The translations under genes and the position numbers were made by a program. Below are positions 22,964 to 45,620 of a DNA stretch of 64,000 nucleotides, piece after piece. Source of the DNA: Gemmata palustris (GTDB lineage Bacteria > Planctomycetota > Planctomycetia > Gemmatales > Gemmataceae); the NCBI RefSeq assembly GCF_017939745.1, contig NZ_JAGKQQ010000001.1:1860001-1924000 (forward strand). The letters are read 5' to 3'. Position 1 is the stretch's first letter, and every line of letters starts with the position of its first letter. Under the pieces are notes generated by a model. The model was not told the origin of the DNA. It made no database searches and was given only the letters and a program-made list of their open reading frames with translations.

Positions 22964-23008
22964 AAGCTCTGTGGGCCACGCGCACGATGCGCGTGGCCCA
23001 CAGAGCTT
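22964..23008 (-). terminator. Strong intrinsic terminator closing the 13-gene cluster
   Basis: A perfect 21-bp stem (22964-22984 with 22988-23008) and a 3-nt loop lie 21 nt past the last stop codon. On the minus strand it is followed by TTTTTGCC. Confidence 0.9.
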
Positions 23009-23029
23009 CTGCGTTACACGGTCGCCCAC

Positions 23030-25186
23030 TCAGATCCGGTCGAGCGAGTCGATCCAGTTCTGGAAGTCCTTGAACGTGGTCTCGTCGAAATACTCTTTGC
23101 CCGATTCCTTCATCTCGCGGAAGATCACCGGGAACCGCTTCTCGATGAGCAAGTTCTTGTGCTCCACGATCTCCTTGATGAGCGGGTCTTTGTCCCCGCC
23201 CGTAATGAAGAACGACAGCGGTTGGTTCGCCACGTTGTCCTTGGGCGCGGTGCCGAGCGTCGCGCCCACGGTACAAACCCCGCGGAACACGTCGCGGGCG
23301 TTGAACCCCACGTAGAACGCCATCTGCCCGCCGCTCGCCATGCCGTGGGCCACGACGCGGGTGCGGTCGATCGTGTACTGACCGAGCACCGTTTTCACGT
23401 CCTGTACCACGAGTTCCGTTTCGCTCGCGACCCACCCGTCGGCGCCGTTGGACTTCGGTCCCATCACGATGAAGTGATTGTCCTCGGCGAAATCGCGGAA
23501 AGTCTTGGACATCTTCTCGCCGTCCTTACCGCCCTGCCCGGCCGGGTGGAACCACACGATCAGCCCGTGCGACACGTTCGGGTCGTAGTTGTCCGGGATG
23601 TACACCCAGTACTCGCGCCCGAGCGCCTCGTTGGTCCGCGTCAGGTACCCCGTTTCGACCTTCGGCTTGTCCTTCTTCTCGTCTTTCTTGTCGCCCTTCT
23701 TCTCGTCTTGGCCACCCGCGTCCGCGCGCACGTCGCTCAGGCCCTTCGGCGGGAACGGGTCTTTGGGGAACGGGTCTTTGGGCGGGTCTTTCGGCTTGGG
23801 CTGCCCCTCGAGCGCCTTGCCCGCGGAGGACGGCAGCGGGAGCTTTTCCGGCACTTCGTCGGGCACCGGGGTGAGCTTCGCGGACACCGTTTCGACCTTT
23901 CCGCCCTCCTTCCGCTTCACCTCCACCTTGACCTCGACGCCGGGCGTGAGGGTTTGGATCGCCGCCAGGAACGTGGCGCGGTTCTGAACGGGTTGCGCGG
24001 TCGCGCCGAACTTCATGATGCGGTCGCCGACCTTGATCCCCGCGGCCTCGGCCGGGCTCTTCGGGTACACGAAGCGGACCTCGACCCCCGGACCCGGGTC
24101 GTCCCGCATCGGCAGGATGCCGAGGTACGCTTTGACGTATGCGGTCGTCGTGCCGAGCAGCTTGATCCCCTTGAACTCCATCTCCTTGTCGCCGCGCACC
24201 GCTTTAAGCGCGATCTCGTCGCCCTCGTACAGCGGCCCCAAAATGTGCTGGAGGGCCGAATAGTCTTGGACCTTCTTGCCGTTGAGTTCGACGATCTTGT
24301 CATTGACCTGGAGCCCGGCTCGTGCGGCCGCGGAGTCCGGTTGAATGGCCCCGATCACGGCCGGGTTGTACACTCCCTCGCCCTTGGGCTGCACCCCGAG
24401 CAACCCGCGGCGCAAGTCCTGTCCCGCCTTCAAACGCGGCAGCGACGCGAGAACGTCTTCCAGCGGGACCGCGAACCCGATCCCGCCGTCGTACACGTCC
24501 ACTCCGGCCGTCTCGCCCTCGGCGCGGTTCGAGGCGGGAACGATGACACCGTACACGCGCCCCTCGATGGAGACGAGTGCCCCGCCGTAGTTCACGGGCG
24601 AGGTCTTCGCGTCGGTCTGAATCGCCTTGCCCCAAATGCGGTTGGTCGCGCTCACGATGCCCGCGCTCATCGACGGCGGGTGGTCCACGCTGTTGTCGAG
24701 CGTGCGCCCGAGCGACAGCCCCCACTGACCAATTTCGACGTCCTTTTTCGGGACCGCGTCGGGAACGGGCAGGTCTTTCAGCTCGATCTTGAGGAGCGTG
24801 AGCATGCGCGACTGGTCGTTGGCGACGATCTTCGCGACGACACGGTCGCGCCCGGGCACGGTCACGAAGATGTTGGCGGGTTTGTTCGCGAAGTTGAACG
24901 CGCTGGAGATGATGAACCCGTCCGGGGAGACGACCAGCCCCGTGGTCGGCCCGACACCCTTGCGGATGCCCGGCCCGGCCCCCTTCTTGTCCGAAACGGT
25001 TTCGGCCCCGCCAGTGGTTTCGATCTTCACGAGCGACGGCGCGACCTTCGCGGAGGCCGCCTTCATCGCCTTCTCGGTCGCCTCGTTGATGTCCGGCTTC
25101 GGTTGCGCCGAAACCGGCGCGGCGAGCAGAGCCGCGGCGACCACCGTGCCCCACGGCCGCGCGGTTCTGGGTACTGTGAATGTCAT
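23030..25186 (-). CDS. HtrA-like pseudoprotease with two PDZ domains and a C-terminal pseudo-hydrolase
   Basis: The 718-residue protein has a signal peptide (about 1-28), a trypsin-like fold (about 40-250), two PDZ domains (about 255-345 and 350-440), a Pro/Lys-rich linker (about 445-512) and an alpha/beta hydrolase (about 513-718). By alignment to the intact paralogue two genes upstream, the catalytic His is Phe97, Asp is Met128 and Ser is Tyr200 (PVNYGGAL in place of PGNSGGPL). In the hydrolase, the G-x-S-x-G position reads GMASG (Ala617), and the usual C-terminal GHEY reads GKEY (Lys697). Both domains therefore look inactive, so a scaffold or binding role is likely. It is the last gene of the minus-strand cluster, 83 nt behind its paralogue. 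Confidence 0.85.
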   Translation of the reverse strand: MTFTVPRTARPWGTVVAAALLAAPVSAQPKPDINEATEKAMKAASAKVAPSLVKIETTGGAETVSDKKGAGPGIRKGVGPTTGLVVSPDGFIISSAFNFANKPANIFVTVPGRDRVVAKIVANDQSRMLTLLKIELKDLPVPDAVPKKDVEIGQWGLSLGRTLDNSVDHPPSMSAGIVSATNRIWGKAIQTDAKTSPVNYGGALVSIEGRVYGVIVPASNRAEGETAGVDVYDGGIGFAVPLEDVLASLPRLKAGQDLRRGLLGVQPKGEGVYNPAVIGAIQPDSAAARAGLQVNDKIVELNGKKVQDYSALQHILGPLYEGDEIALKAVRGDKEMEFKGIKLLGTTTAYVKAYLGILPMRDDPGPGVEVRFVYPKSPAEAAGIKVGDRIMKFGATAQPVQNRATFLAAIQTLTPGVEVKVEVKRKEGGKVETVSAKLTPVPDEVPEKLPLPSSAGKALEGQPKPKDPPKDPFPKDPFPPKGLSDVRADAGGQDEKKGDKKDEKKDKPKVETGYLTRTNEALGREYWVYIPDNYDPNVSHGLIVWFHPAGQGGKDGEKMSKTFRDFAEDNHFIVMGPKSNGADGWVASETELVVQDVKTVLGQYTIDRTRVVAHGMASGGQMAFYVGFNARDVFRGVCTVGATLGTAPKDNVANQPLSFFITGGDKDPLIKEIVEHKNLLIEKRFPVIFREMKESGKEYFDETTFKDFQNWIDSLDRI

Positions 25187-25269
25187 CGGTGTGTTCCGAA
25201 TAAGTGCGGTCTGTTAATAATTGTGACGTCGTTCGCGGCGCCGACCGGGGCCGGCGCAACGGAGCCCGA

Positions 25270-26454
25270 TTACTTCTTCGGAGGGGTCGGGACGGTCGGC
25301 GGGGCCGGGGGCACCGGCTTGCTCGGTTTGGGCGGGTGGGCACCGAGGTCCACCTCGATGGTCTGGAGGGCCTCCCCGCGGCGCACTTCGAGCCGGACCT
25401 TGCTGCCCGTTCGCGTGTGCTTCTTGATGAAATCGTCGAACGCCTTGATGCTCACGATCGGCTCACCGTCGACGAAGCTCACGAGATCATCGGGGCGGAG
25501 CCCGGCCTTGTCCGCGGGCGAGCCCGGCACCACGTCCTCGATGAACGCCGGCGTGCGCTCGAGCACGTTGGGGACGAAGACGATCCCGTGGTACCCGCCC
25601 TGCCCGATGACGTCCTTCCGAACGACCGGCTTGTATTTGCCCTGCAGCGCCAGGGTGACGAACTCCGGCATCGCGATCGTGGTGATTTTCTCCTCCTCGA
25701 CGTCCCTGCCGTCCTTGTCCTTGGTGAGCACCTTTTCCTTCACGTCGACCTTCCCGCCGACCGGGATCGCGTAGTTCATCCACGTCTCGGTCAGGCTGTT
25801 CTTGATCTCGCGGCCGATGATGCCGAGCAGTTCGCCCTTGCGGTTGAGCAGCGCGCCGCCGGCGGCCCCGGGGTTGTTGGTGATCGCGTCCACCACGTAC
25901 ACGTCGCCGGTGTACGGGAACTCGAAGATCCCGCGGCGCCCGGCCATCTTCGTGTACGCGGAGACGACCCCGCGCTGCACGCTCAGCGGCTCGTCGCGGA
26001 GCGCGATCTCGAACGTGTTGCTCATGGCGATGATCCAGTCGCCCGCGCCCGCGGGCGGGCGCTTCGCGGCCGCGCCGAAGTCGAAGTAGTCGAGGTCGAG
26101 CCCGGTCGGGTCCTCGAGCTTCTTCCCCTCCGGGCGGATCTTGATGAGCGCGACGTCGAGGAGCGGTTCGGTCACGATCACCTGCGCCGGGAGGCGCTGG
26201 CCGTCGTAGAGGTGGACGACGAGCGCGGTCGTGTCGAGCAACTGGCTCGCGACCGTGAGGACGTGCCCCTCCTTGCTGATGACGATCCCGGTGCCGTAGT
26301 TGTTGATGCGCTGGAACCCGCCGGCGCCGAAGATCTTCACGAGCTTCTTGTTCGCCTTTTCCGCCGTGTCCGCGAACGGGTCGGCCGCGGGCGCGAGGGC
26401 CGGCGCGCCGAGAACCGCCAGGGCCGCGAGGAAAACGGAGTGTCGCGTAAACAT
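25270..26454 (-). CDS. HtrA-like protein with degenerate active site and one PDZ domain
   Basis: The 394-residue protein has a signal peptide (about 1-24), a trypsin-like fold and one PDZ domain (about 290-375; VPGSPADKAGLRPDDLVSFV). Aligned with its intact neighbour, the His position is Ser70 (GHVLTVASQLL), Asp100 is kept (PLLDVALIKI), and the Ser position is Ala198 (NNPGAAGG in place of NPGNSGG). It should bind substrates or partners without cleaving. The C-terminal tail is Pro/Lys-rich. The gap to the upstream paralogue is 73 nt and contains a GC-rich hairpin, so co-transcription is likely. The family call is firm; loss of activity is inferred from three aligned positions. Confidence 0.85.
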   Translation of the reverse strand: MFTRHSVFLAALAVLGAPALAPAADPFADTAEKANKKLVKIFGAGGFQRINNYGTGIVISKEGHVLTVASQLLDTTALVVHLYDGQRLPAQVIVTEPLLDVALIKIRPEGKKLEDPTGLDLDYFDFGAAAKRPPAGAGDWIIAMSNTFEIALRDEPLSVQRGVVSAYTKMAGRRGIFEFPYTGDVYVVDAITNNPGAAGGALLNRKGELLGIIGREIKNSLTETWMNYAIPVGGKVDVKEKVLTKDKDGRDVEEEKITTIAMPEFVTLALQGKYKPVVRKDVIGQGGYHGIVFVPNVLERTPAFIEDVVPGSPADKAGLRPDDLVSFVDGEPIVSIKAFDDFIKKHTRTGSKVRLEVRRGEALQTIEVDLGAHPPKPSKPVPPAPPTVPTPPKK

Positions 26455-26486
26455 GGTAGTTGTGGTGTGCCGTGGTGAGGGATCGT

Positions 26487-26514
26487 GCGGCCCGCGCGTT
26501 CGGGCGCGGGCCGC
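26487..26514. other. Intercistronic GC hairpin
   Basis: 11-bp stem GCGGCCCGCGC / GCGCGGGCCGC (26487-26497 with 26504-26514), loop 6 nt, no T run on the minus strand. It sits between the active and degenerate HtrA-like genes, so it is more likely an mRNA-stabilising or processing element than a terminator. Confidence 0.55.
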
Positions 26515-26527
26515 GCGGTGGCCCGAG

Positions 26528-28348
26528 TTACTTGCCCAGTGTCCACTTCGTCGGGGTGAGGACCGCGTAGCGCTTGTCGGCGTGGCGCACCTCGATGCGG
26601 CCCGGCACCTTGCGCCCGTCCACGTCCTTGTAGTCGGAGAAGTACACCTCGCACGGGTCCGCTTCGGCGTCCTTCGAGTCCTTCGCGATGTACGACTCGA
26701 ACCCGAGGAGCGTGGCGTCTTTGAGCGAGAAGAACCACTTGCAGTTGACCGAGCCGTGCTTGCTCACGATCACCGCGCAGTCCACGCGGAGCGCCGCGAG
26801 CGACTTGGGCGCGGAGCCGTCGGCCGGGTACGGGTAGAACGGCTCGTTTCCGCCGTGGGCGAACTCGCCCTCGAACCCCTTCGCGCCGAGCGTCAGGAGC
26901 CGCTGGTACTGGTACAGGGCCGTCATCAGCCCGCCGCTCCCGAGCGGCTGCTTCTGCAGCCCGATGTCCGTCTGCTTGAGCGGCTCGAGGCTGGTTTCGA
27001 CGTTCATCTTCAGCGTGACCTTGGTCGTGTCCTTGGTCTCGGCGATCTCGACGCGCAGCGCCCCCTCGCGGTCCGGCATCTTGAACCCGCCCTCGATCGT
27101 CCACGAGCCGGTGGCCGTCGAGAAGTCGCCGTGCTTCTTGAACGCGGCGAGCAACTTGTCGCGCTCGAGCGCGTTGAAGTACCAGTTCGAGTACCCCTTC
27201 TTCGCCTCGTACATTTTGGCGATCTCGCCGGTCGCCTTCGGCGCCGGGGTCGGGGGCGCCGGTTGGGGCGGACCCTCGCCGGGCACCGGCGGCTTCTCCC
27301 GCTCCTTTTCCATGTTCCCCATCAACCGGACCAGGAGCTCCTTCTGCTCGTTCGCCCGGCGGATCGTGACCGGCAGGCGCCAATCTTTGGGGTAGATCCC
27401 GAGCGCGTTCTTGAACTGGTTCGTGCTCGTCATCGCGCGCCCGGCGAACTCGAGCAACTGGTCGTTGTTCTCGAGCCCGCGCCGGGAGGCGTCGCTCTCG
27501 TCCAGGATCTGCTTCACGACCATCTGGGCGAGCGGGGCGTCCTCGGACTTGCTGGCGACGAACGCGCCGAGCGTGGCGTGGTCCGTGTCGATCCCGGCCC
27601 GCAGGTGGCCCATAAAGTTCTTGATCTGGTTGATCGAGATCGCGTACCCGACGCCGGAGTTCACCCGGCCCCGCTTCTCGAACGACCCGCGCCCGTTGAT
27701 CCCGATCAGTTCGCCCTGCATGTTGAACAGCGGGCCGCCCGAGTTCCCGGGGTTGATCGAGGTCTCGATCTGGATGCAGTCGGTGTACTCGAGCAGCCCC
27801 TTCCCTTCGGGCGGCTGGTACCGGTTCACCCCGCTCACGAGCCCGTAGGTCACGGTCGGGGTGAAGTCCATCGCCAGCGAGAACGGGTTGCCCATTGCGA
27901 GGGACCAGTCGCCCCCGCGCACCTTGTCGCTGTCGCCGAGCTTCACGAACGGGAACGGCTTGCCCTTCTCCTTCGGGACCATGCGAATGAGGGCCACGTC
28001 CCCGACCTTATCGATGCCGCACACGACCGCGTCGTAGAGCACGCCGTCGGCGAGCCCCGCGCGGGGCAGCGGCCCGGTCGCCTGGACGACGTGGAAGTTG
28101 GTCAGCGCGTAGCCCTCGGCGTCGATGAGCACGCCGGACCCGCACCCCTCCCCGTTGGGCATGCACACCGCCACCACAGCCGGGTGGACCTTCTTGATCG
28201 CGGCGATGCGCTGGGCCTGGGCGTCGAGTACGCCCTTGTCCACGTCGAGCGGGGCCGCCGGGGCCACCGGCACCAGCAGACCGGCGGTCGCGACGACCGC
28301 ACACGCGGCCACCGCCGCGAGGCGGGACGGTCGAAGAAATCGGCTCAT
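26528..28348 (-). CDS. Secreted trypsin-like (HtrA/S1C) serine protease with PDZ domain
   Basis: The 606-residue protein has a signal peptide (about 1-32). Its trypsin-like domain has an intact triad: His86 (ALTNFHVV), Asp117 (VGDVALI) and Ser203 (NPGNSGGPL). A degenerate PDZ-like region follows (about 265-350), then a Pro-rich linker (about 355-375) and a beta-rich C-terminal domain of about 230 residues not recognised. It should act in the periplasm or at the envelope as a housekeeping or quality-control protease. The start at 28348 is preceded by GGGG; the longer frame to 28474 overlaps the upstream gene's end and lacks a signal. It is the only catalytically complete member of the HtrA-like trio. 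Confidence 0.9.
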   Translation of the reverse strand: MSRFLRPSRLAAVAACAVVATAGLLVPVAPAAPLDVDKGVLDAQAQRIAAIKKVHPAVVAVCMPNGEGCGSGVLIDAEGYALTNFHVVQATGPLPRAGLADGVLYDAVVCGIDKVGDVALIRMVPKEKGKPFPFVKLGDSDKVRGGDWSLAMGNPFSLAMDFTPTVTYGLVSGVNRYQPPEGKGLLEYTDCIQIETSINPGNSGGPLFNMQGELIGINGRGSFEKRGRVNSGVGYAISINQIKNFMGHLRAGIDTDHATLGAFVASKSEDAPLAQMVVKQILDESDASRRGLENNDQLLEFAGRAMTSTNQFKNALGIYPKDWRLPVTIRRANEQKELLVRLMGNMEKEREKPPVPGEGPPQPAPPTPAPKATGEIAKMYEAKKGYSNWYFNALERDKLLAAFKKHGDFSTATGSWTIEGGFKMPDREGALRVEIAETKDTTKVTLKMNVETSLEPLKQTDIGLQKQPLGSGGLMTALYQYQRLLTLGAKGFEGEFAHGGNEPFYPYPADGSAPKSLAALRVDCAVIVSKHGSVNCKWFFSLKDATLLGFESYIAKDSKDAEADPCEVYFSDYKDVDGRKVPGRIEVRHADKRYAVLTPTKWTLGK

Positions 28349-28379
28349 GGTGAAGCCCCGGAAGGAACGTGAATTCGGC

Positions 28380-28470: not shown

Positions 28471-29721
28471 TCACTTCTGGACGCGAGCCTCGGCCAGCGT
28501 GACGTAGTTCCCGTTGAGCGGCGTGTCCGCTTCGACGATGATGCGCAACTGTTTGACGCCCTTAACGGCAAGAACTAACCCTTTGGGTTTGTCCTTTCGC
28601 TTCAGTTGTTCGGTGAACAGCACCTGACCGTCGGCCTCAATGGTCACCCGGGCGGCGCTCGTCGCGTTCGCGCCGTTCTCGTCGATCCCGACCGTCGCCT
28701 TGAATTGCGTGTAGTCGCCCCCGAGGTTGAACGTCGCGACCGTTTCCGGGGCGATGCACACGCCCTTCGGGAACGACTGGTTTTCCAGTTTGATCGTCTC
28801 GTTCGAGAGGGACCGGTCCTTCAGGTACGCCGCGGTCGGGTTGAGGCGCTTCTCAATGAGCGGCACCTCGGGCAGTTCGAGCTGCGGGTCGAGGTCCGAC
28901 AGGTACGCGACGTTGCCGAGCGCGTAATCGAGCTTCACCAGGGCCGCGGTCGAGGCGTACTTGATCGTGGCGCCGGCCACTGTCGTCACGGAAACGCCCT
29001 CGGGTGCGATCGAGATCGCGGACGCGGTGAGCGCGTTCCCGAACACGTCGGTCACTTTGCACAGCGTCGCCGGGATGACCGGCGGTTGCGGCTGGTAGAA
29101 CACGAGCCCCGCCGCACGCGACAACGGGAGCTCGTCCTTCCCGCCGCCCTCCTTCTCGAAGGTTACGAACGGCCTGTTACCCGTCGCGGTCCCGCTCAGC
29201 ACGGTGCCCTGAATGTACGTGAAGCCGGTTTCTTGTGCGATCACGTACAGGTCGCGCTTGCCGCGGTTCGCCAGCATCTTCTTCCAGGCGTCCCGCACCT
29301 TCGCGTCGTCGGCCCGCTTCATCGCGGAAAAAACCGCGCCCATCGGGAGCTCGATTTTCGGAAGGGGGAGGCCCTGCGGACCCGGGACCGGGTCGGCCTC
29401 AAACTGTTTGTCTTTCAGGGAGAACTTCACAACGCGGAACGTCGAACCGTCGGTCAGTTCGATCTCGGAGAAGGTCGTCACGTCCTTCGGGACCGGCGCG
29501 ACCTTGTTCCCCAAATCGACCACCACGATGTCGCGCGCCGGGATCTGCGCCTTGCTCTCGCCCACGGCGAACATCACGCCCTGAGCGTCCACGGCCACGA
29601 GCTTCCCGTTGAGCTTCTTGCCGGCACTGGTGGTCACGTCGTCGCCGGTAGCACCGGGTCCGGTAAGAGCAAGAACCGTGAGTCCGGCGGCGAGAGCCAC
29701 TGCGCGGCGGGGGAATCGCAT
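28471..29721 (-). CDS. Secreted NPCBM-domain protein
   Basis: The 416-residue protein has a signal peptide (MRFPRRAVALAAGLTVLALT). The N-terminal and middle parts are beta-rich without a recognised family; GKKLNGKLVAVDAQG is a typical strand-turn segment. The C-terminal ~140 residues match the NPCBM/NEW2 type of putative carbohydrate-binding module: RSLSNETIKLENQSFPKGV, then TVGIDENG and a final LRIIVEADTPLNGNYVTLAE. Such modules occur on exported glycan-related proteins. It lies between a helical secreted protein and the HtrA-like trio and probably works at the cell envelope. GAGG precedes the chosen ATG. Confidence 0.8.
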   Translation of the reverse strand: MRFPRRAVALAAGLTVLALTGPGATGDDVTTSAGKKLNGKLVAVDAQGVMFAVGESKAQIPARDIVVVDLGNKVAPVPKDVTTFSEIELTDGSTFRVVKFSLKDKQFEADPVPGPQGLPLPKIELPMGAVFSAMKRADDAKVRDAWKKMLANRGKRDLYVIAQETGFTYIQGTVLSGTATGNRPFVTFEKEGGGKDELPLSRAAGLVFYQPQPPVIPATLCKVTDVFGNALTASAISIAPEGVSVTTVAGATIKYASTAALVKLDYALGNVAYLSDLDPQLELPEVPLIEKRLNPTAAYLKDRSLSNETIKLENQSFPKGVCIAPETVATFNLGGDYTQFKATVGIDENGANATSAARVTIEADGQVLFTEQLKRKDKPKGLVLAVKGVKQLRIIVEADTPLNGNYVTLAEARVQK

Positions 29722-29827: not shown

Positions 29828-29856
29828 AGATTATACCGCCGTAACGCGCCGACCAC

Positions 29857-30957
29857 TCACTTCTTGTACCCGTGGATCTTGTCCAGGGACTCGAAGTAGT
29901 TCTTAATCATCGGCTCGAACTTGGCCGGCAGATCACGGGTAATGTCCTGGACGACCTTGGCCCGTTGCGCGGCCGGCAGCGAGCCCCACTGTTCGGCGAT
30001 CTTGCGGAGCTCCTGGTCGGTGACCTTGCCCGGCCCGCTCCCGCCCATGATCTTGCTGTCGGCGGCCGGCTTGCTCGGGTTCAGGTTGTTGCCGTTACCG
30101 TTGCCGTTGCCCTGGCCGCCGCCGGGGCAGTTGCCGCCGTTGCACTGACCACCCTTGCACTGGGATTCGAGTTCCTTGATGATCTCGTCGAGGCGGAACA
30201 CGATCTTCTTCTGGATGTCCTGGGTCTTTTCGCCGCCGCGGGACAGGTCGAGCCGGCGCCCGCTGTTGTCCATCAGGCGCTCGATGTTCGACAGGTCCTT
30301 CGGGTCGCTGGCCCAGTTCTGCATTTCAAAGAACATGAGGGTGGCGACGATCTTGTAGCGGTCCGGGGCGTCGGACACGTCGTCGAGGAGCTTGACGATC
30401 GAGGTGATCGCCGCTTCCTTGTCGCCGGTCTTCATCGCGGTCGCGTGGTGCGAAACGGCTTTGAAGAAGTACAGGCTGGCCGGGTCGACGGCGACGTCCG
30501 GGTTCACGCCCTTGAGGGCGTCGATGGCCTCTTCGTACACCTTCTTGCTGGCCGCGGCCTTCGCGAACGCGAGGGCGACGTTGGTGCGGAAGAAGGCGTC
30601 CTGCTTGTCGTCCTTCAGAATGCCCGGGACCGCGGCCGGGGCCACGGCGTCCTGCTTGCGCACGCTGGCGAGCATCGCGGCGACTTCGGAGTTCCCCAGC
30701 GCGAGCGCGTCGGCGGTGCGGTCGAGAACGGTTCGCTTCTCGTCGGCCCAAACCTTGTCGAAAGCGGCCTGATCGAACTTGCCGACCGACTTCAACCACG
30801 CTTCGGACTTCGCCTTGGCGGATTCCGGGGTGGCGGCTTTCAGCGTGCTGAAGCCGAACGTCGGCTTTTTGGCCGGTTCAGCGGCGAACGCTGGGGTGAC
30901 GGTTGTGACCAGTCCCGCGGAGACCGCGGCGGCCGCAAACAGCTGGCGAATCTTCAC
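29857..30957 (-). CDS. Secreted helical protein of unknown function
   Basis: The 366-residue protein has a clear signal peptide (MKIRQLFAAAAVSAGLVTTV, cleavage near 25). The mature part is almost all helical, in TPR- or HEAT-like short helices (about 45-255). A Cys/Gly/Asn-rich stretch follows (CKGGQCNGGNCPGGG at about 267-281) with a GNGNGNGNN run, then a helical C-terminal segment (ELRKIAEQWGSLPAAQRAK). That last segment resembles the ends of other planctomycete proteins found beside MoxR/DUF4175-type genes, but no named family could be assigned. Its place in the minus-strand cluster suggests an envelope role. Confidence 0.7.
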   Translation of the reverse strand: MKIRQLFAAAAVSAGLVTTVTPAFAAEPAKKPTFGFSTLKAATPESAKAKSEAWLKSVGKFDQAAFDKVWADEKRTVLDRTADALALGNSEVAAMLASVRKQDAVAPAAVPGILKDDKQDAFFRTNVALAFAKAAASKKVYEEAIDALKGVNPDVAVDPASLYFFKAVSHHATAMKTGDKEAAITSIVKLLDDVSDAPDRYKIVATLMFFEMQNWASDPKDLSNIERLMDNSGRRLDLSRGGEKTQDIQKKIVFRLDEIIKELESQCKGGQCNGGNCPGGGQGNGNGNGNNLNPSKPAADSKIMGGSGPGKVTDQELRKIAEQWGSLPAAQRAKVVQDITRDLPAKFEPMIKNYFESLDKIHGYKK

Positions 30958-31138: not shown

Positions 31139-33085
31139 TCACTGATTTTCCTTGTTCGCGATCTTGTGCAGCATGTCTTGCAGCACTTTCTGGCGGGCGG
31201 CGAGTTGGTTCAACTCCGCCTGGATCAGCGGATCTTTGGCCTGTTCGCCCGGATCTTGCTTGTTGTACATGACCGTCCGCTTGTTCACCTGCTCCTGGAG
31301 TGACTTCACCAACTTGAGTTCGGCGAGGAGTTCCAGCAGCTTGTTGTCCGGCTTCTTGGCGTTCGGGTCGTTCGGCTTCGGTTCGCTCGGTTTGTTTTCC
31401 AGGTCCTGCTTGGCCTTCTTGAGAGCCTCCCTCATCATCTTGAGTTGTTCGATGATGTCGCCCTCGATCTGCTGCGTGTCCTCGCCGACGCGGGCCTCGT
31501 TGAGGCGCTTCTGGACCGCTTCCATGTCGCCCCGAACTTCCTTCAGCACGCCCGCGAACACGACCGCGCTGCCCTCGCCCTCCATCAGCTTGAGCGTGGC
31601 GTCGGCGATCCCGATGATCTGGCTCTCCTTGTCGGCCTGAGTTTGGCTCTTCTGGATCTCCGCGACCGCCGGCTTGCCGCCGAGCGACTGCACGGTTTTG
31701 TAAATGTTTACGGTATCGCCCTGCACTTCGGTTTGCAGCTTGAGCATCAGGGTGACGCGCTGTTCGAGGTTCGCAAGGAGCTTGGCCAGTTCCTTTTCGC
31801 GGAGCTGCTTCAGGCGCGCTTCCAGATCCTTGAGCGCCTCTTCCAGCTTCTTGATCGCCTCGTCCTGCTTCTTGGTGGCAGGGGTCTTCTCGTTCTTCTT
31901 GATGTCCTCTTCAGCGCCCTGCTGTTGCGGGACGGCCTCTTGCACGTTCTGCGCGGCCGGGTCCTTCTTGCCGCCTTGCGGGGGCGGGTTACCGCCCGAG
32001 GGCGAACCGCCGCTCTTGGAACCGCCGGGGCTGGGCTGGCCCATGCCCATCCCGCCCATGCCCTCGCCGCCCATCGGCTTGCCCTCGCCGCCCGGTTGGC
32101 CGGCCGACGGCTTGCTATCGGCCTTACCCGCGCCCTGGGCCTTGCTCTCGCCGCTCATCGGCTTGGGCTCGCCGCCCATCGGGTCCATCGGTTTGGCTTC
32201 GCCGCTCGGCTTGGCCTCGCCGCCCTTCGGGTCCATCGGGGCCGGCTTGTCGCCGCCGGGCATCCCGGCCATCGGCATCCCGCCCACCGGCTTGGCTTCG
32301 CCCCCGCCCTTCGGGTCCATTGGCATCCCACCCATACCCTCGGCCTTGTTGTCGCTCTTGTTTTCCTTGGTGTCGGGCTTGTTCTCGGCGGTGTTCTCGC
32401 CCGGCTTCGGCTCGGCCTTGTTCTCGGACTTCGGCTCCTGTTTCTCGCCGCCGTTCGGGTTGCCCTTGTCGTTCGGGTTGGCCGCCTTCGCGAGCGCGTT
32501 GGCCAGGTCCTGCGTCTTCTTCGCGAGGTCGTTCTGGTCCTTCGCGAGCTTGTCGGCGTCGCTCTTCGGGTTGAAGGTCCGCGCGAGCAGGTTCTCCTGC
32601 TTGGTTTTCACCTCGCGGATCGCCTTGATCGCCGCTTCGAGCTTCTCGATCTCCTTCCGCAACCGGGCGCTTTCGTCATCGGTTTCGAGGATACTGAGGA
32701 TCTCGGTCAGCGCGTCAATCAGCTTCTTGTCCTTGCCAAGTAGCGACTCGAAGTCGCTGCCGCCGAGGTTCTTACCGTTGAGCCCCTCAATGAGCTCCTT
32801 GAACAGCTTCTCGACGCCCCGCTCTTCGGCCAATTTCAGAACGGACCGGAGGGACTTGGCCCGATCCTTGTCTTCGGGGCTGTCGCTCTTCTCCCACTTC
32901 TGGGCGAGCCGTAACACCTGTTCCGTGAAGCTCTTGTAGAACTTCAGGTTCTCTTCTTGACTCCGCTTGGTACCGGTAGCGGGCACGGGCGTTGGCTGCT
33001 GGGCGGTAATGACCGAGGTGAGCACGAACAAGCCGACCGTCGCTGCGAAAGTCAGCGGCAGGAATGTCGGCAACCGGCGGAACAT
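31139..33085 (-). CDS. Exported coiled-coil protein with Gly/Met/Pro/Lys-rich central region
   Basis: The 648-residue protein has an N-terminal hydrophobic signal or anchor (LPLTFAATVGLFVLTSVI). Two coiled-coil-forming regions (about 35-200 and 400-640, rich in Lys/Glu/Gln) flank a low-complexity centre (about 205-385). The centre repeats units such as GGMPMDPKGGGEAKP and GGEGMGGMGMGQP. No enzymatic motif is visible. The position between the DUF4175-like membrane gene and a secreted helical protein suggests a structural partner of the VWA membrane proteins. GGAGG lies 8 nt before the chosen ATG at 33085. The family is not recognised. Confidence 0.75.
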   Translation of the reverse strand: MFRRLPTFLPLTFAATVGLFVLTSVITAQQPTPVPATGTKRSQEENLKFYKSFTEQVLRLAQKWEKSDSPEDKDRAKSLRSVLKLAEERGVEKLFKELIEGLNGKNLGGSDFESLLGKDKKLIDALTEILSILETDDESARLRKEIEKLEAAIKAIREVKTKQENLLARTFNPKSDADKLAKDQNDLAKKTQDLANALAKAANPNDKGNPNGGEKQEPKSENKAEPKPGENTAENKPDTKENKSDNKAEGMGGMPMDPKGGGEAKPVGGMPMAGMPGGDKPAPMDPKGGEAKPSGEAKPMDPMGGEPKPMSGESKAQGAGKADSKPSAGQPGGEGKPMGGEGMGGMGMGQPSPGGSKSGGSPSGGNPPPQGGKKDPAAQNVQEAVPQQQGAEEDIKKNEKTPATKKQDEAIKKLEEALKDLEARLKQLREKELAKLLANLEQRVTLMLKLQTEVQGDTVNIYKTVQSLGGKPAVAEIQKSQTQADKESQIIGIADATLKLMEGEGSAVVFAGVLKEVRGDMEAVQKRLNEARVGEDTQQIEGDIIEQLKMMREALKKAKQDLENKPSEPKPNDPNAKKPDNKLLELLAELKLVKSLQEQVNKRTVMYNKQDPGEQAKDPLIQAELNQLAARQKVLQDMLHKIANKENQ

Positions 33086-33423
33086 GGGAAGCCTCCCTCC
33101 GAGGGGGCGATGCGGCAAATCCGCGTCGCCGGGTGTTCATTCGTCTGCCATTGTGACGACCTGCGAGAGGGCCGCCAACAGACAACGGGGGAAAAACCAC
33201 AAGCGTTCGGGCAGATGTTACAGTCCGTTACGAATTCGATTTCTGCCTGCCCGTAATTGCACCGCGGAGCGATCTACTTGTGGGCACATTCGCTCTGTGA
33301 GCGGGCAGGTTTGGAACAGAAAGAACAAGGCGGACGCCGCTCCTTCACAGCAGGAAGCACCAGTCTTCGCCCCGGAGGGGCCGGCGTCCGTAGCACAGGG
33401 CGGAACCCCTGTGTGATTGAGAA
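33086..33423. other. 338-bp gap in the cluster with dispersed repeat copy 2
   Basis: This is the longest gap within the cluster. It holds the second copy (33364-33413) of the 50-bp repeat also found at 1267-1317. No gene is supported. A promoter for the downstream genes may lie here, but none could be picked. Confidence 0.4.
33364..33413. repeat. Dispersed 50-bp repeat, copy 2
   Basis: Same sequence type as 1267-1317: TCTTCGCCCCGGAG, GGCCGG and CGTAGCACAGGGC blocks shared. The terminal stem here is weaker (ACAGGG / CCCTGT with a larger loop). Confidence 0.6.
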
Positions 33424-36400
33424 CTACTTCACGACCACCGTCACTTCAACCGGGGCACCAACAGCCGGGGTGAGGGTGATCTTATAAGTGCCCTCTTTTG
33501 CTCCCGCTTTGACCTCGTAATCGAACCGGAACTGGTGCGTTTCGTAAGTGAGTTTCAGTTCCGCGGGTACCGTAATGGAGGGATCGGACGCGATTACTTT
33601 TACGGTGAGGTCGTCTTCTTTGTACTTCGCCCAGATGATCGTGTGGCTCAACTTCTTGGCCTCGCCCTTCGTCAGGGCCACCGCACCGATCTGGCCGATG
33701 GTCGGTTTCTCACTGAGGTAAATATCGTCAAAAGCCCTTTTCATCTTTTCAATTTGCGCCTGGACGACAAGCTGATCGTCCTTGATTTTCTTAATCATCT
33801 TGATCACGAACTCTTTGTTCTGCGACTCACCGATCTCCTTGCGGATCTCCGCGAGAAGTTGCTCGAGCGTCCACAGTGACTGCTCGGCGTCGCTCACCGC
33901 GACGAGGGGCGCCCAGCGGCCGCCGTTCAGCACGTTCTGAACGTTGTTCATCAGGTTCTGCGTTTTGGGGAACGCGACCGACGCTTGCGGGTCCTCGCTC
34001 AGGATGCCCTCGAGGCGCCCGCAATACTTGAGGTAGTTATTCGTGGTCACATCAATGACCCGGTTCACCTGGCACTCGCGGGCGATCCGGCGGAACTCGC
34101 GGAGCACCGTCTGAACGATGTCCCGGGCCTTCTCGACGTCCTGGGAGGCGTCCTGGTGGCGCACCTTGACGGCGTCCACTTGCTCGGGCGTTTCGTCCTT
34201 AAAGCCGTTCGAGTTGCGGATGAAGTCGTACTTCCGTTTGGCCGCCGCGAGTTTCACGAGCGCCTCGTCGAGGCGCGTGCCGAGTTGCTCCTCTTCCTTG
34301 CTAATTTCGAGCAGCAGATCGCCCTCGGAAACGATGCGCAGGCGGATCGGCTCGCTACTGCGGGTGACGCGCGGGCCGCCGTCGGCGTCGGCGTTATTGT
34401 CGGTGGCCTGCACGAACAGGTCCATGCGGTAACTCGGCTGGATGTCGCCCCGCGGCGCCAGGATCTTGATGATCCCCTGGTCGTTGAGTTCCTTCAGGTC
34501 GAAGTAGTCGCGGTCCGCGTTCTTCAGTTCGATCTTGCGCACCGCTTCGGGGTTCGTCTCGTCCGCGCTGGGCGTTTTGAGCAGGGCGTCGAGGCGCTCC
34601 TTGGTGTCGCGCCGGAGCTTGCTGCTCTGGTTCACGAACTCGCTGACGAACACCGACGCACTGAGCCGGTCGTCGGACTTGTCGAGCATGCGGAAGTTGT
34701 CCGCGTGCAGGCGCGGGAGCATAAGGGCCGGGAGGTACCGTTGACCGGCGCCGGGCGCGTCGAGGAGCGAGCGCAGGGCGTACTTCGTCCGTATCGCGCG
34801 GACCGTGTCGGAGTCTTCTGCGTAGTAGTTGAACTGGTACTCGACCTTGCTCAGCCCGTTGTCGTCCTTGATGAAGCTGTCCGGGTTGAACGGGATGCGG
34901 GCCACCGGCGTGACGAGGTACACGTTGCCCGACTTGCGGATCACGTCCACGCCCACTTCCACCACCGGCGGTTGGTCCTGCGTGACCTGGATCAGGACCG
35001 ACCGCGTCGTGCTGACGGCGTATTTGTTCGTGTACGTCACCTTGAACTCGACCGGGTCTTTGAGCCGGAAGTCGACGTTCGCCCGCGCGTCTTTTTCGGG
35101 GTAGGCGCCCTTGAGAACCGACACGGCGGCCTGTGAGACCGGCCCCAGGTCGTCCCACGTGTTGCGGAACATGATGCTGAAACCCTTACCGCCCTCGGTC
35201 ACCTGAACCGGCACGGGCGCCTGCGTCATCTTGCCGTCGTCGCCGAATGCCGCGCCCGGGAACTTCCCGGTGACCGGGACCGCGACCGCGGACACGACCG
35301 CGTCGTTGTCCGACAACTTGCCCTCGTCGTCGGTATAGGCGTCGGCGACGAGGAGCACCTGCGAGCCCGCGGGCACCACGACGACGGACCGCTCGCCAGT
35401 GAGCGAGAGGTTCCGCTCGGTCATCACCTGGCGCTTGCCCTTCAGGTCGTCGAAGCTCGCCCCCTGGGGCGGCGCGTGGTGCAGGTAACTCGGTTCTTCC
35501 TGGACGCGGTACAGCCGCTTGAGCGAGGGGGGCGGGATGAGCCGGATGCGGTGCCCGCGGGTGGAGAAGTCGTCGGCCCTCACGACGAACTCGACGTCCT
35601 CCTTCAGCCCGCTGATGTCACCGGTGAACTCGTTGTTCTGCTTCGGCGTCAGGGTGCCGCCGCCGCGGAACTTGGCCCCAACGTACTTGAACGACACCTC
35701 GATCGGCACCTCGACCCGGAACGTCTGCCCGCTCTCGTCGCGCTCCGCGTTCCCGTCCTTGTCGGACTTGGTCACCCACCGCGTCAGTTCGAGTTTACGC
35801 AGGGTGCGCCCCATGCTCGGCTGGTCCGCTCTCGCGCTCAGGGCCTTGAACACCTCTTGCGCCTCGGCGAACTTGTCCCCGAGTGACTGGCGCAGCGACG
35901 CGCGGTAAGCGGCCGCTTCGGGCGCGAGCGATTCGTCGGGCGCGTCGTCCGGGACGAACAGCCGGCGCTCGACGGTGTCCACGGTCCATTCGGACGCGCT
36001 TTTCGGCACGCTGCCCTTCGGCTCGTCGGCGAACCGCAGCACTTCAAAATCGAGCTCCGGAGCCTTGCGCCCGACGAGCCCCTCGGTCACGTCCGCCCAC
36101 ACCATCGGGCGCCACCCCTCGGGCGCGGAGGCGTCCGCGACGACCCACTTGTACGCGCGGGCCGTGACCGGCACCGTCGCCACGTCGCGGCTGACGGTCG
36201 CCTCGGTCTCGGGGAAGCCGACCAGTTCGATGTGCGCCCGGCGCGGCCAGGGCGTGTTCATCAGGGCGACGTTGCGCTCGAGGAAGATCCCGGTGACGTG
36301 CGCGAACTTCCACCCGAACCGGTACGGGCTGGCCGCCTTCGTTGCGACCGCGTGGCTCGCGAACGCGACGCCCAGGGTGCCGACCAGCAGCCCCAACGCG

Positions 36401-36939
36401 ACGAACCCCATCACCCACAACCGGCGCCAGTCGAACACCTCGTTCACCGGCACCGTGCCGACCCGCTCCCGGGCCTCGGCGATGGTGATGTTAATCATCT
36501 CCTTCGAGTACCCGAACTTGCCCATCGCGTCGACGTCGGCCATTTCGACGGCGGTGATGAGTCGGTCGCCGAGCACCTTCGGGAACTTGCGCTCCAGAAC
36601 CAGCGCGAGGGCCGGGTAGGAAAACTCTTTCGTCAGTCGGGTGGCGATCCGGAACACCAGGAACGCCGCGAACAGTCCCAGCGCGGCGATCAGGGCGACC
36701 ACGCGGAAGCCCCGCCCCGCGTCGAGCGCCCAGTCCCAGCCCGAAACCTTGAACAGCCCGAAGTCCAGGACCAGCCCGAGCACGAACCAGGCGGCCACGA
36801 AGAGGATCGCGGAGATCGCGCCCTCGATGACGATGTAGCGCCGGATGATGCCGCGGAGCCGGTCCAGCGGGTGGTACACCTGTGGGTCGCGCGCCCGGTC
36901 GGAGCCCTCGGACCGTCGGGTTTGTTCCGCGGTTGCCAT
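33424..36939 (-). CDS. Large DUF4175-like membrane protein
   Basis: The 1171-residue protein has three transmembrane helices in the first 200 residues (about 37-60, 77-98 and 173-195). A segment between helices 2 and 3 reads YPALALVLERKFP and LGDRLITAVEMAD, typical of DUF4175-like proteins. A very long extracytoplasmic part follows, with beta-sandwich-like repeats, then a helical, Glu/Lys-rich C-terminal region. No catalytic motif is visible. In other bacteria proteins of this type lie next to MoxR/DUF58/VWA genes, as here. Assignment to DUF4175 is by pattern and could be only a remote relation. A GC hairpin separates it from the VWA gene upstream. Confidence 0.7.
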   Translation of the reverse strand: MATAEQTRRSEGSDRARDPQVYHPLDRLRGIIRRYIVIEGAISAILFVAAWFVLGLVLDFGLFKVSGWDWALDAGRGFRVVALIAALGLFAAFLVFRIATRLTKEFSYPALALVLERKFPKVLGDRLITAVEMADVDAMGKFGYSKEMINITIAEARERVGTVPVNEVFDWRRLWVMGFVALGLLVGTLGVAFASHAVATKAASPYRFGWKFAHVTGIFLERNVALMNTPWPRRAHIELVGFPETEATVSRDVATVPVTARAYKWVVADASAPEGWRPMVWADVTEGLVGRKAPELDFEVLRFADEPKGSVPKSASEWTVDTVERRLFVPDDAPDESLAPEAAAYRASLRQSLGDKFAEAQEVFKALSARADQPSMGRTLRKLELTRWVTKSDKDGNAERDESGQTFRVEVPIEVSFKYVGAKFRGGGTLTPKQNNEFTGDISGLKEDVEFVVRADDFSTRGHRIRLIPPPSLKRLYRVQEEPSYLHHAPPQGASFDDLKGKRQVMTERNLSLTGERSVVVVPAGSQVLLVADAYTDDEGKLSDNDAVVSAVAVPVTGKFPGAAFGDDGKMTQAPVPVQVTEGGKGFSIMFRNTWDDLGPVSQAAVSVLKGAYPEKDARANVDFRLKDPVEFKVTYTNKYAVSTTRSVLIQVTQDQPPVVEVGVDVIRKSGNVYLVTPVARIPFNPDSFIKDDNGLSKVEYQFNYYAEDSDTVRAIRTKYALRSLLDAPGAGQRYLPALMLPRLHADNFRMLDKSDDRLSASVFVSEFVNQSSKLRRDTKERLDALLKTPSADETNPEAVRKIELKNADRDYFDLKELNDQGIIKILAPRGDIQPSYRMDLFVQATDNNADADGGPRVTRSSEPIRLRIVSEGDLLLEISKEEEQLGTRLDEALVKLAAAKRKYDFIRNSNGFKDETPEQVDAVKVRHQDASQDVEKARDIVQTVLREFRRIARECQVNRVIDVTTNNYLKYCGRLEGILSEDPQASVAFPKTQNLMNNVQNVLNGGRWAPLVAVSDAEQSLWTLEQLLAEIRKEIGESQNKEFVIKMIKKIKDDQLVVQAQIEKMKRAFDDIYLSEKPTIGQIGAVALTKGEAKKLSHTIIWAKYKEDDLTVKVIASDPSITVPAELKLTYETHQFRFDYEVKAGAKEGTYKITLTPAVGAPVEVTVVVK

Positions 36940-40000: not shown

Positions 40001-40396
40001 CGAGCCGAGCGCGAACAGCCCGATCGTGAGGGCGTACCACTTCACGACGTTCCCGGCGCTGCCCGTCGAGAGGGTCTCGCCCGTGCCCTTCGCCGGCTCC
40101 GCGTCGCGGACGTTGTAGAAGTACATCCCGACCACGACGTAAGTAATCAGGAAGAGCCAGAACCCGGACCGGAGCTTCGCCGCGACCGGGTCCTTCGCGC
40201 CGGGCTGGTGCTTGGCGGCGTTCGCGTACTTGTACGTGACGCGCGCGACCAGCGCGAGGACCACGAGGGCCAGGAGCACCTGACAGTAAATGTTCCCGGC
40301 GAAAGCGCCGATCGCGTCTCCGCTGAACTGGTCGAACGAGTCGGACACGCGCCGGAACACGAACTCGTTCTTTTTCGTCGTCGTTGTTTCGTTCAT
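37043..40396 (-). CDS. Membrane protein with VWA domain and glutamine-amidotransferase-like domain
   Basis: The 1117-residue protein has four transmembrane helices near the N terminus (about 37-53, 77-94, 120-140 and 153-173) and one at the C terminus (about 1095-1112). A VWA domain follows the fourth helix, with an intact metal-ion site DISPS (191-195). After beta-sandwich segments, LRILLMAGAPSREF starts a class I glutamine-amidotransferase-like (DJ-1-like) domain of the type common in such proteins. It belongs to the large membrane VWA group found with MoxR ATPases. The start at 40396 is chosen because the longer frame runs back into the preceding gene. It probably forms a complex with the BatA-type protein encoded upstream. 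Confidence 0.82.
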   Translation of the reverse strand: MNETTTTKKNEFVFRRVSDSFDQFSGDAIGAFAGNIYCQVLLALVVLALVARVTYKYANAAKHQPGAKDPVAAKLRSGFWLFLITYVVVGMYFYNVRDAEPAKGTGETLSTGSAGNVVKWYALTIGLFALGSVFVVFMYLKDTRTVRWYFAGPLALMRITVYAILCFVFLLPAMQTWEDTNKQSRVVLLLDISPSVTDVTDEIGSGAAKKSRTRMDILIEFLTDEKVAFLKNLLEKNPVAVYAFGTRLDESPTMIGQGDAGWSRADWEAFRKYDFKPFVLRGLSEAGKTQIRGVREWGDGPGTADWAQTWFARKADAELKSFSGLESEDDITALRKNLEKLDKRIDVARTITMGTNVPDSISAAINRESSNMVQGIIVLSDGRSNLGSDSSYVELRDRAVREKIPVFTITVGEERSSAAITITDVQAPDSAPIDEAWKIIVEADGVNLANKEVEVFLDLWLPGRDIKAVGPDHQITQKLTFAPGDPPHGQTEFVIDPAKLPETLTVESKDAAIKKRVLPEGKWSARARIAKDPLEAFPDPEHISAVREVNVVQQKLRILLMAGAPSREFSFLRTLLVREVMDKRASLTTFVQNDAGTTGKLTAEQDELVIPRFPTKFDLKPAIKDDPEKAYNLNEYDVIVAFDPDWSELSVQQAEDLRRWVKEGGGGLIYVAGPINTFQLARVEKDSRLDPVLDVLPVQPADIIAVRFKGTPRTPRRLYLNSKAIIGSDLLKLDDKVADDPVAGWERFFTDREKYVPDGDLKSELFPARGFFSCYPLKADVGIGGVKAGSAVLAEFADVGDTGELVKLPYLVTNNPSASWRTCFLASGEFYKMRVFEPGEGTGREYFERIWIKMIKYMAGKRNIKAPRGRVLVAKEAVSGAPLRVQARVLNESARPYDITAAAPKFTIVQEPAGGGDKRSFGPFDLAPKTNPGGAFDGYYGGQVLLDPKTFAAGEALYRVEIDVPDSSEKLSGEFKIRAADPEMDNKKPDFPSMLRMASEFDKDFQARLPDKVKVEFGTKLPKDAGVHRLAFKVGEPELLKLIPECMVTKKVSTQNRGPVNDLWDRGFDMPTWTPESEGTNKYLASWWSGQRLSVVMLAVIFLLSFEWLGRKLLRLA

Positions 40397-40450
40397 CGCC
40401 TGCTCGCGGGTGTCCGGTCGTGTTTGTTCGTGTGTTGGTGTTTCGCTCGC

Positions 40451-40482
40451 GGACCCCGCCCGCCCCTGGGTCGGGCGGGTCC
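40451..40482. other. Intercistronic GC hairpin
   Basis: GGACCCCGCCCG pairs with CGGGCGGGTCC (one bulged C; 40451-40462 with 40472-40482). No T run follows on the minus strand. It lies between the two VWA membrane-protein genes. Confidence 0.5.
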
Positions 40483-40490
40483 GCCTCGGA

Positions 40491-43370: not shown

Positions 43371-43511
43371 CGGTGCGAATCTCGGCGTCGGTGGTCGGTA
43401 CGGGTCGCCGCGCGTCTCCCTCCCGCCCATCTCACGGGGCGGGAGCGGGAACCCAGACAACGCTCTGGGCGGCGGTCGGTTCGTTCGGGCACTGGCCCGG
43501 GGAGCGCGCCG

Positions 43512-44561: not shown

Positions 44562-45620
<1,059 letters not shown>

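Follow-up and report, generated by a model that had tools for sequence, protein, structure and literature searches.

An HtrA-type protease gene conserved with two HtrA-like pseudoprotease genes and a MoxR-DUF58-BatA cluster in Planctomycetota

Three adjacent minus-strand genes of Gemmata palustris encode one HtrA-type serine protease with an intact catalytic triad (H1) and two HtrA-like proteins in which the triad is not retained (H2 and H3). They lie in a 64,000-nucleotide stretch of contig NZ_JAGKQQ010000001.1 (positions 1,860,001 to 1,924,000), referred to here as the window, and all coordinates below are those of the window. On balance we lean towards a reading in which the three products would form an exported proteolytic module, with H1 as the catalytic component and H2 and H3 as non-catalytic partners, linked to MoxR-DUF58-BatA. 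By analogy with MamE/MamO and CspB/CspA/CspC, H2 and H3 are most likely regulatory or substrate-presenting subunits of H1. The features of the region are listed below, with neighbour counts given out of 20 loci.

22964..23008, minus strand: intrinsic-terminator-like hairpin after H3 (20-bp stem, T tail)
23030..25186, minus strand: H3, HtrA-like pseudoprotease (F97/M128/Y200) with two PDZ domains and a C-terminal pseudo-esterase (about 513-718)
25270..26454, minus strand: H2, HtrA-like pseudoprotease (S70/D100/A198) with one PDZ domain (286-370)
26528..28348, minus strand: H1, HtrA-type serine protease, intact H86/D117/S203, signal-like N-terminus by inspection
28471..29721, minus strand: NPCBM-domain protein, upstream neighbour in 18/20 loci
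29857..30957, minus strand: 366-aa protein, no Pfam match, upstream neighbour in 18/20
31139..33118, minus strand: 659-aa ORF, coiled-coil-like by inspection, no Pfam match above cut-off, upstream in 19/20
33424..36939, minus strand: 1171-aa ORF without a Pfam match, its N-terminal part showing membrane-like segments on inspection, upstream in 18/20
37043..40561, minus strand: 1172-aa ORF without a Pfam match, showing membrane and VWA-like segments on inspection only, upstream in 18/20
40491..43460, minus strand: BatA-type protein (PF07584), upstream in 18/20
43512..44459, minus strand: DUF58/VWA protein, upstream in 18/20
44562..45620, minus strand: MoxR-type AAA+ ATPase (AAA_3), upstream in 18/20
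45782..46972, minus strand: squalene-hopene-cyclase-like repeat protein at the 5' end, within 20 kb in 8/20

The residues that the initial annotation had assigned to the triad positions agree with the profile alignments. H1 has the motifs LTNFH86VV, GD117VAL and GNS203GG; the corresponding segments are LTVAS70, LLD100VAL and GAA198GG in H2, and SSAF97, SRM128LTL and VNY200GG in H3. When aligned as profiles to DegP-type crystal structures, H2 Ser70 and H3 Phe97 occupy the position of the catalytic His, H2 Asp100 and H3 Met128 that of the catalytic Asp, and H2 Ala198 and H3 Tyr200 that of the nucleophile. All three proteins score above the cut-off for PF13365 and below that of TIGR02037, the Do-family serine endopeptidase model (201.9, 110.7 and 143.7 bits for H1, H2 and H3, cut-off 416.2 bits). 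PDZ domains exceed the Pfam cut-off in H2 and H3; the PDZ region of H1 (about 263-345) falls below it (18.8 vs 27 bits), and the profile alignment of H1 to DegP runs through this region.

Models of H1 and H3 matched HtrA structures in a fold search. The AlphaFold model of H3 (mean pLDDT 85.6) has the HtrA fold, aligning with Legionella DegQ over 360 residues (Z 27.6, rmsd 6.9) and with Rv0983 over 272 residues (Z 27.6, rmsd 3.9). Residues in H2 and H3 were placed from the profile alignments, the H3 fold search being without a residue-level table and the fold model covering H3. A triad hidden elsewhere in H2 or H3, which the initial annotation had named as a finding that would refute it, gained no support from the profile alignment for either protein or from the overall fold for H3. 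The C-terminal domain of H1 (about 375-606) gave no Pfam match up to E 0.001, DUF6544 reaching E 0.1, and a sequence search of the PDB was likewise empty up to E 5; in the fold search with the whole H1 model, the matches were all taken up by the protease part.

H3 comprises two dead enzyme folds, one HtrA-like and the other an esterase-like alpha/beta-hydrolase. Its C-terminus is significantly related to PHB depolymerase-type esterases (NF050058, E 3.7e-14; PDB 3wyd, E 2.5e-9), with family scores below the cut-offs (52.8/150 bits for NF050058 and 12.8/23 bits for PF10503). Ala617 stands at the nucleophile position and Tyr699 at the His position; among the H3 rows, column 617 is Ser in 2/56 and column 699 is His in 0/56, the alignment of this domain being loose outside the family.

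The gaps between the trio genes are 73 and 83 bp, with no minus-strand terminator-like site inside either, which together with the hairpin following H3 is consistent with a single transcription unit for the trio. Further upstream, the MoxR, DUF58 and BatA genes follow in a row, each above the cut-off of its Pfam family (AAA_3, DUF58 and BatA), an arrangement present in 18/20 loci.

Conservation was examined at 60 Planctomycetia loci picked by their H2 match. The order and strand of the trio are kept in 55 of these, and the H1 triad reads H/D/S in 60/60 rows. H2 is without the catalytic His in 61/61 rows, and Tyr replaces Ser in all 56 H3 rows. The loop that formerly held the nucleophile is the best-conserved 12-residue stretch in H2 and the second best in H3. 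In comparisons with two close relatives, dN/dS for H1, H2 and H3 was 0.11-0.16, and a third relative gave 0.17-0.24, the values of H2 and H3 being similar to those of the active H1. All three are under purifying selection. Across the class, H2 was matched in 244/297 genomes and H3 in 277/297, some of the weaker H3 matches being other HtrA proteins. In many H2 rows a His lies one residue downstream (as in WSH), out of register with the catalytic His column; the one H2 row with Ser at the nucleophile column, L046, is without this downstream His.

H2 and H3 each form one clade (SH-aLRT 99 and 98, respectively). The initial annotation had described a stepwise loss of the triad running from H1 through H2 to H3, and this chain has to be given up, as H2 and H3 are, judging by the tree, separate ancient clades and not steps of one series. 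Those clades, the dead alpha/beta-hydrolase on H3, the greater length of the cluster and the spread of the trio through the class and into others are additions to that annotation.

The trio was found at 16 of 20 chosen loci from other Planctomycetota classes so that, with the Planctomycetia loci, it recurs in related genomes as the initial annotation required. A single ORF encodes H1 joined to H2 in 3/16 of these other-class trios, from three assemblies and two families, and in 0/60 Planctomycetia loci; by eye, the fused H2 domains have Q, P and Y at the place of the nucleophile. The Ser column of other-class H2 was left out of the counts (MAFFT misplacement). One other-class H2, L196, retains the catalytic His, and in the most distant loci of the H3 clade the His is lost and the Asp kept. 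The H1 row of L200 was aligned at an unlikely His context, and its frame contains LTNYHVV. As the H3 profile match spans only about the first half of the protein in 15/16 other-class trios, the principle does not depend on the second PDZ domain and the pseudo-esterase.

Among the genomes checked, those of better assembly either retain H1, H2 and H3 as a set or have lost all three. Five class genomes have no H3 nearby (one of them also no nearby H1), and all three genes were retained in 5/5. Conversely, in families f3, f7 and f8 the 14 checked genomes that are without H2 are also without H1. In G099 and G103 (97 and 99% complete), and in all 12 searched genomes of family f3, which we take to be Isosphaeraceae, the H2 search was empty at 1e-15 and no H1 match extended past query residue 380. 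The matches of these 12 f3 genomes to the 1172-aa protein of the cluster were no more than weak (best E 3e-12). Seven Gemmataceae-level genomes are without the full set, several of them fragmented or incomplete; in G034, H1 is complete, H2 gave no strong match and H3 is present as a fragment only.

The fold and PDZ layout of the trio, the H1 triad and the DegQ alignment of H3 resemble DegP/DegQ/DegS, from which the trio differs in that two of its three members are inactive, in the extra C-terminal domain of H1 and in the esterase-like domain of H3. Another parallel is MamE/MamO, where, according to PMC4794232, an active HtrA protease and an HtrA-derived pseudoprotease share one gene island, and MamE proteolysis needs inactive MamO, whose own site is dispensable. 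That system has one pseudoprotease and not two; MamO is a metal-binding protein with a TauE-like domain, and its family is described as specific to alpha-proteobacterial magnetotactic organisms, similar pseudoproteases having arisen independently in other magnetotactic groups. The trio scored at most 92.3 bits against NCBIfam MamE (NF040960) and 42.5 bits against MamO (NF040961), the cut-off being 800 bits.

The Csp proteases of Clostridioides difficile, which are not known to carry a PDZ domain, are likewise comparable. As PMC6464247 describes them, CspB, CspA and CspC are one active and two inactive paralogous proteases of one transcriptional unit; CspB and CspA are made as a fusion that is cut later, and CspA and CspC are proposed germinant receptors holding CspB in check. 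They are subtilisin-like and act in spore germination, whereas the trio matches trypsin-type families. MoxR, DUF58 and BatA genes also stand together in operons of the Bat type, in regions described from Bacteroides, Leptospira, Rhizobium and Borrelia (PMC5700661); the word HtrA is absent from the main text of that paper. Among the matches listed in the planctomycete and Gemmata HtrA-type literature, no account of the trio was found in titles and abstract starts, subscription papers being mostly outside this set. PMC12053348 mentions a MoxR-like ATPase of an aerotolerance operon and HtrA proteases apart from each other, and PMC6411480 counts PDZ proteins in planctomycetes, its main text being without the words inactive or catalytic.

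It is conceivable, although in our view unlikely, that H2 and H3 work on their own as envelope chaperones or holdases, using the HtrA fold and PDZ domains to carry unfolded clients alongside H1 instead of acting on H1 itself. DegP and DegQ act as chaperones once the Ser is removed, the fold and PDZ layout of H2 and H3 match theirs, and signal-like N-termini were seen by inspection on all three proteins; a shared complex is nevertheless the better fit to the fixed Tyr at the H3 nucleophile position, the retention with H1 and the H1-H2 fusions. Rather improbable is a structural or carbohydrate-associated role in the envelope, as components of the MoxR-BatA cluster with no part in proteolysis, adjacency to H1 being a relic of tandem duplication. 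Such a role would suit the placing of the genes in a large conserved cluster that also encodes NPCBM and BatA-type proteins, and the added, likewise inactive, esterase-like domain of H3, but not the completeness of the split trio, the absence of H1 from the checked f3, f7 and f8 genomes without H2, or the fusion of H1 to H2.

The MoxR and VWA-type neighbours also recall the MoxR-vWA type conflict or immunity systems of the VMAP proposal (PMC7159879), under which H2 and H3 would be decoys or dominant negatives, and that paper places inactive trypsins in such systems and reports the systems in planctomycetes. There the inactive trypsins are effectors fused to vWA proteins, whereas here they are separate proteins with signal-like N-termini and, with the reservation on weaker H3 matches given above, occur in most genomes of the class; we give this explanation very little credence. 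Loss of the catalytic residues could also mark functionless, decaying paralogues of a tandem duplication, but the genes are under purifying selection, the residues that replace the triad are held and the trio persists across families and classes, which leaves this next to no probability, and chance or decay was judged very unlikely on the clade tree and dN/dS.

The module reading, with H2 and H3 as partners of H1, draws on the constant order of one active and two inactive genes, the invariant H1 triad, the held replacement residues and conserved nucleophile loop, the H1-like dN/dS, the single clades, joint retention and loss, the fusions and the MoxR-DUF58-BatA genes upstream. The trio products would form one module, exported as their N-terminal segments suggest, with H1 presumably active and the sole catalytic subunit. 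H2 and H3 may bind H1 directly or within one complex, and would license, restrain or feed it, the direction being either activation or inhibition. The pockets of both are remodelled (NPGAAGG in H2, NYGG in H3) and probably hold a ligand, such as a peptide, that is left uncut; the three PDZ domains of H2 and H3 would recruit clients, and the module may act in the cell envelope together with the MoxR-DUF58-BatA products of the adjacent upstream genes. The proposal in the initial annotation that the pseudoproteases serve the active HtrA is strengthened by the wide conservation, the retention when unlinked and the three fusions; regulation, scaffolding and presentation look the same from sequence. 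Counting against the module are the small number of fusions and their confinement to other classes, the roughly half-length H3 matches there, the intact triads of other HtrA proteins of the genome, the Gemmataceae-level genomes without the full set, G034 included, and the H2 proteins of L046 (Ser at the nucleophile column) and L196 (His).

More tentatively, and with some doubt, the trio may represent a heteromeric HtrA machine found over much of the phylum, in which a protease is permanently paired with two pseudoproteases of fixed and specialised pockets as an envelope sensor and client selector under a MoxR AAA+ system. The proteasome and ClpP/ClpR are mixed active and inactive assemblies comparable in principle. 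If true, this would make it an HtrA complex in which inactive subunits are a built-in part, one of them (H3) doubly pseudoenzymatic, and would tie the MoxR-BatA cluster to envelope proteolysis. The bacterial pseudoproteases in the papers cited (MamO, CspA and CspC) each belong to a narrow setting; the present set of an active HtrA protein and two inactive ones has been kept together in most sampled families of a class and extends to other classes of the phylum. The natural series of linked, unlinked, fused and wholly lost trios offers a way to ask what an inactive protease contributes to its active partner.

The Gemmata palustris genome has 20 Trypsin_2 matches above the Pfam cut-off. Of the proteins matched, 12, H1 included, align as H/D/S (one of them in two pieces), and H2 and H3 do not. 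Since the other HtrA proteins have intact triads, H2 and H3 could serve those. The remaining six matches are two in a tandem-domain ORF, two in a split locus and two without a resolved alignment, the tandem-domain ORF and the split locus giving partial or non-H/D/S readings.

The three adjacent HtrA-like genes described in the initial annotation as showing stepwise loss of the catalytic triad were all found on the minus strand of the window, separated by intergenic gaps of 73 and 83 bp and followed by a terminator-like hairpin:

26528-28348, minus strand: H1, intact-triad protease, 606 aa
25270-26454, minus strand: H2, HtrA-like pseudoprotease, 394 aa
23030-25186, minus strand: H3, HtrA-like pseudoprotease, 718 aa
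22964-23008, after H3: terminator-like hairpin, 20-bp stem with a T tail

Catalytic residues were placed using profiles of H2 and H3 relatives aligned to solved DegP-type structures. H1 retains the triad (LTNFHVV, KVGDVAL, NPGNSGGP). In the profile alignment H2 (LTVASQL, PLLDVAL, NPGAAGG) has Ser70 at the His position and Ala198 at the nucleophile, and H3 (SSAFNF, QSRMLTL, SPVNYGG) has Phe97 and Tyr200 there, as had been claimed; a His-Asp-Ser triad was found in neither H2 nor H3. All three proteins match Pfam Trypsin_2 above cut-off, and none reaches the cut-offs for Do, MamE or MamO. Pfam finds one PDZ domain in H2 and two in H3, that of H1 falling below cut-off. The predicted model of H3 (mean pLDDT 85.6) matches the fold of DegQ along 360 aligned residues (Z 27.6, rmsd 6.9). 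Residues 370-606 of H1 (26531-27241, minus strand) form a C-terminal domain of high model confidence, with no Pfam or PDB sequence match.

To follow the trio in related genomes, 60 stretches around H2 matches were taken, one per genome, from 60 genomes of many genera of the class Planctomycetia. H1, H2 and H3 keep their order and share a strand in 55 of the 60, although in five of these more than 600 bases separate neighbouring frames; within the fetched stretches, four loci have no H3 and one has neither H1 nor H3. Absent H1 or H3 copies contribute no row to the alignments below, and the L086 H3 and L049 H1 are partial. The H1 of L049, like that of L116, is apparently split across two overlapping frames in the assembly.

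Residues at the triad columns in the class alignments, window included
H1 (60 rows): H, D and S in all
H2 (61 rows): His column S44 N11 T4 G2; Asp column D49 E10 S1 Q1; Ser column A43 G11 H2 S1 N1 Q1 T1 P1
H3 (56 rows): His column F51 Y4 A1; Asp column M47 K3 R2 L1 S1 H1 N1; Ser column Y56

An overlapping set of 80 named loci, selected with the H3 profile from Gemmata, Limnoglobus, Fimbriiglobus, Schlesneria and uncultured relatives, holds the trio in 66; seven are without H1 and seven without H1 and H2. Some of these incomplete trios lie at contig ends, and in L108, L159, L165 and L166 the genes are truly apart. Among the aligned triad rows of this set, window included, H1 reads H/D/S in all 46, none of the 38 H2 rows has the His, and all 45 H3 rows carry the Tyr. 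The best-conserved 12-residue stretch of H2 is DAITNNPGAAGG, and in H3 DVYDGGIGFAVP ranks first and TDAKTSPVNYGG second by the same measure. Between the window and two close relatives, dN/dS (NG86) is 0.14-0.15 for H1, 0.15-0.16 for H2 and 0.11-0.12 for H3, and with a third relative 0.19, 0.24 and 0.17, respectively. Judged from sequence, the dead sites of H2 and H3 are preserved as sites.

At E 1e-15, 244 of 297 class genomes have an H2 match and 277 an H3 match, although the weak H3 matches of family f3 (1e-16 to 1e-25) are probably other HtrA proteins. In 12 f3 genomes no HtrA match to H1 extends beyond query residue 380, so the H1 C-terminal domain is absent. All H1 matches of G099 and G103 (97 and 99% complete) likewise end by model position 318 at E 1e-40, a threshold at which searches with H1, H2 and H3 returned only these partial H1 matches and one generic H3 match in G103 (6.1e-44, positions 18-358). 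All three genes are present in the five class genomes without a nearby H3 (G051, G186, G250, G295 and G265), at strengths below 1e-200 for H1, 1e-120 for H2 and 1e-230 for H3; in G186, H1 is also apart from the rest, and the H1 and H2 matches carry one stop codon each. Within the Gemmataceae every one of 95 genomes has an H2 match at E 0.001, 88 of them strong (3.6e-63 or better). The other seven (G032, G034, G050, G054, G067, G076 and G083; best E 1.3e-14) hold no full set, which speaks against a strict rule of joint retention: G034 has a full H1 and an H3 fragment without a strong H2, G054 and G067 have H3 fragments, G083 has part of H1 where a contig ends, and G032, G050 and G076 have no H1, H2 or H3 at the cut-offs used. 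Since their assemblies are mostly fragmented or incomplete (G032 is 92% complete, in 390 contigs), these genomes were counted neither for nor against joint retention.

Outside the class, an H3 profile search of 294 phylum genomes gave 20 loci, chosen by best score or tandem matches and not at random, of which 16 have the ordered trio with an active-triad H1 and an H3 bearing NYGG. In 15 of these 16 trios the H3 profile covers only about the first half (protease and first PDZ). At the more distant L206-L209, an HtrA with an intact-type site adjoins an H3 relative whose His column holds Phe, whose Asp is retained and whose Ser column reads V, S, T or V; L207-L209 have an additional degenerate copy. 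In a tree of 131 protease domains, built by a quick method without bootstrap, H2 and H3 each form one clade (SH-aLRT 99 and 98), and two changes are needed for H1, which may reflect the best-score labelling of degenerate copies as H1.

H2 has its own frame in all 60 class loci, whereas H1 and H2 form a single continuous frame in L196 and L203 (985 and 993 aa; G529 and G548, one family) and in L197 (1290 aa, of which about 400 at the start look non-coding; G350, another family). Each fused frame has two Trypsin_2 stretches; the first halves read H/D/S and the second H/G/Q, S/G/P and T/L/Y, the last letter being read by eye. These natural fusions of an active protease to a pseudoprotease are the best hint that H1 and H2 may be in contact.

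The C-terminus of H3 (about 513-718) is kin to PHB-depolymerase and feruloyl esterases (NCBIfam NF050058, E 3.7e-14, below cut-off; PDB 3wyd, E 2.5e-9). Ala617 stands opposite the nucleophile-elbow Ser in three printed alignments, and Tyr699 opposite the catalytic His in the 3wyd alignment. Among 56 class rows, aligned loosely outside the Gemmataceae, two have Ser at column 617 and none has His at 699; in the named, mostly Gemmataceae-like loci, Ser occurs at 617 in 2 of 45 rows and Tyr at 699 in all 45. H3 is thus predicted to be doubly dead, both its protease site and its C-terminal esterase-like site being lost.

Upstream of the trio, on the same strand, lie genes for an NPCBM protein, 366-, 659- and 1171-aa proteins without a Pfam family, a 1172-aa protein, BatA, DUF58 and MoxR. 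No sigma-70-type promoter, the only type searched for, was matched in 22800-34000. MoxR, DUF58 and BatA precede the trio in 18 of 20 class stretches, and the nine-gene run from MoxR to H1 is complete in 15, the exceptions being L179 (H1 alone), L183 (without the MoxR end) and L177, L184 and L187 (one gene short each). Twelve f3 genomes have only weak matches to the 1172-aa protein (best E 3e-12). Of the 20 other-class loci, 13 have one or more relatives of the NPCBM, 366-aa and 659-aa proteins close by (E 1e-4), and the trio of L195 is immediately preceded by MoxR and DUF58. MoxR ATPases and their VWA partners are reported to take part in the remodelling or maturation of target complexes (PMC9976466, PMC13036017).

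The interpretation in the initial annotation, that the inactive members regulate, scaffold or present substrates to the active one, is partly supported and made more likely, and to it are added the spread across the phylum, the second dead domain of H3, the H1-H2 fusions and the MoxR context. Two systems offer parallels. MamO, an HtrA-derived pseudoprotease, is required for MamE-dependent proteolysis with its own site dispensable, and physical contact between the two had not been detected (PMC4794232); H2 and H3 may similarly serve H1. In C. difficile one transcriptional unit yields three Csp proteases, two of them inactive; this inactive pair is proposed to act as receptors restraining the active Csp (PMC6464247). 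By analogy with MamE/MamO and Csp, H2 and H3 would sense or select and H1 would cut.

Downstream of the trio, a single ORF (19077-22772, minus strand) combines Ser/Thr protein kinase and SASA-type acetylesterase domains. A plus-strand ORF at 16473-18872 has sigma-70 regions 2 and 4 mid-protein and, near its end, a weak STN-like segment scoring below cut-off. A DDE_3-type transposase lies at 58211-59305 (minus strand). Elsewhere in the window's genome, G000:C1:365351-366517 (L246, L249) is a single ORF with two tandem Trypsin_2 domains, its triad readings partial in the alignment, and G000:C1:3128231-3129372 (L253, L254) holds adjoining partial HtrA-like frames, with Cys at the Ser position in one row.
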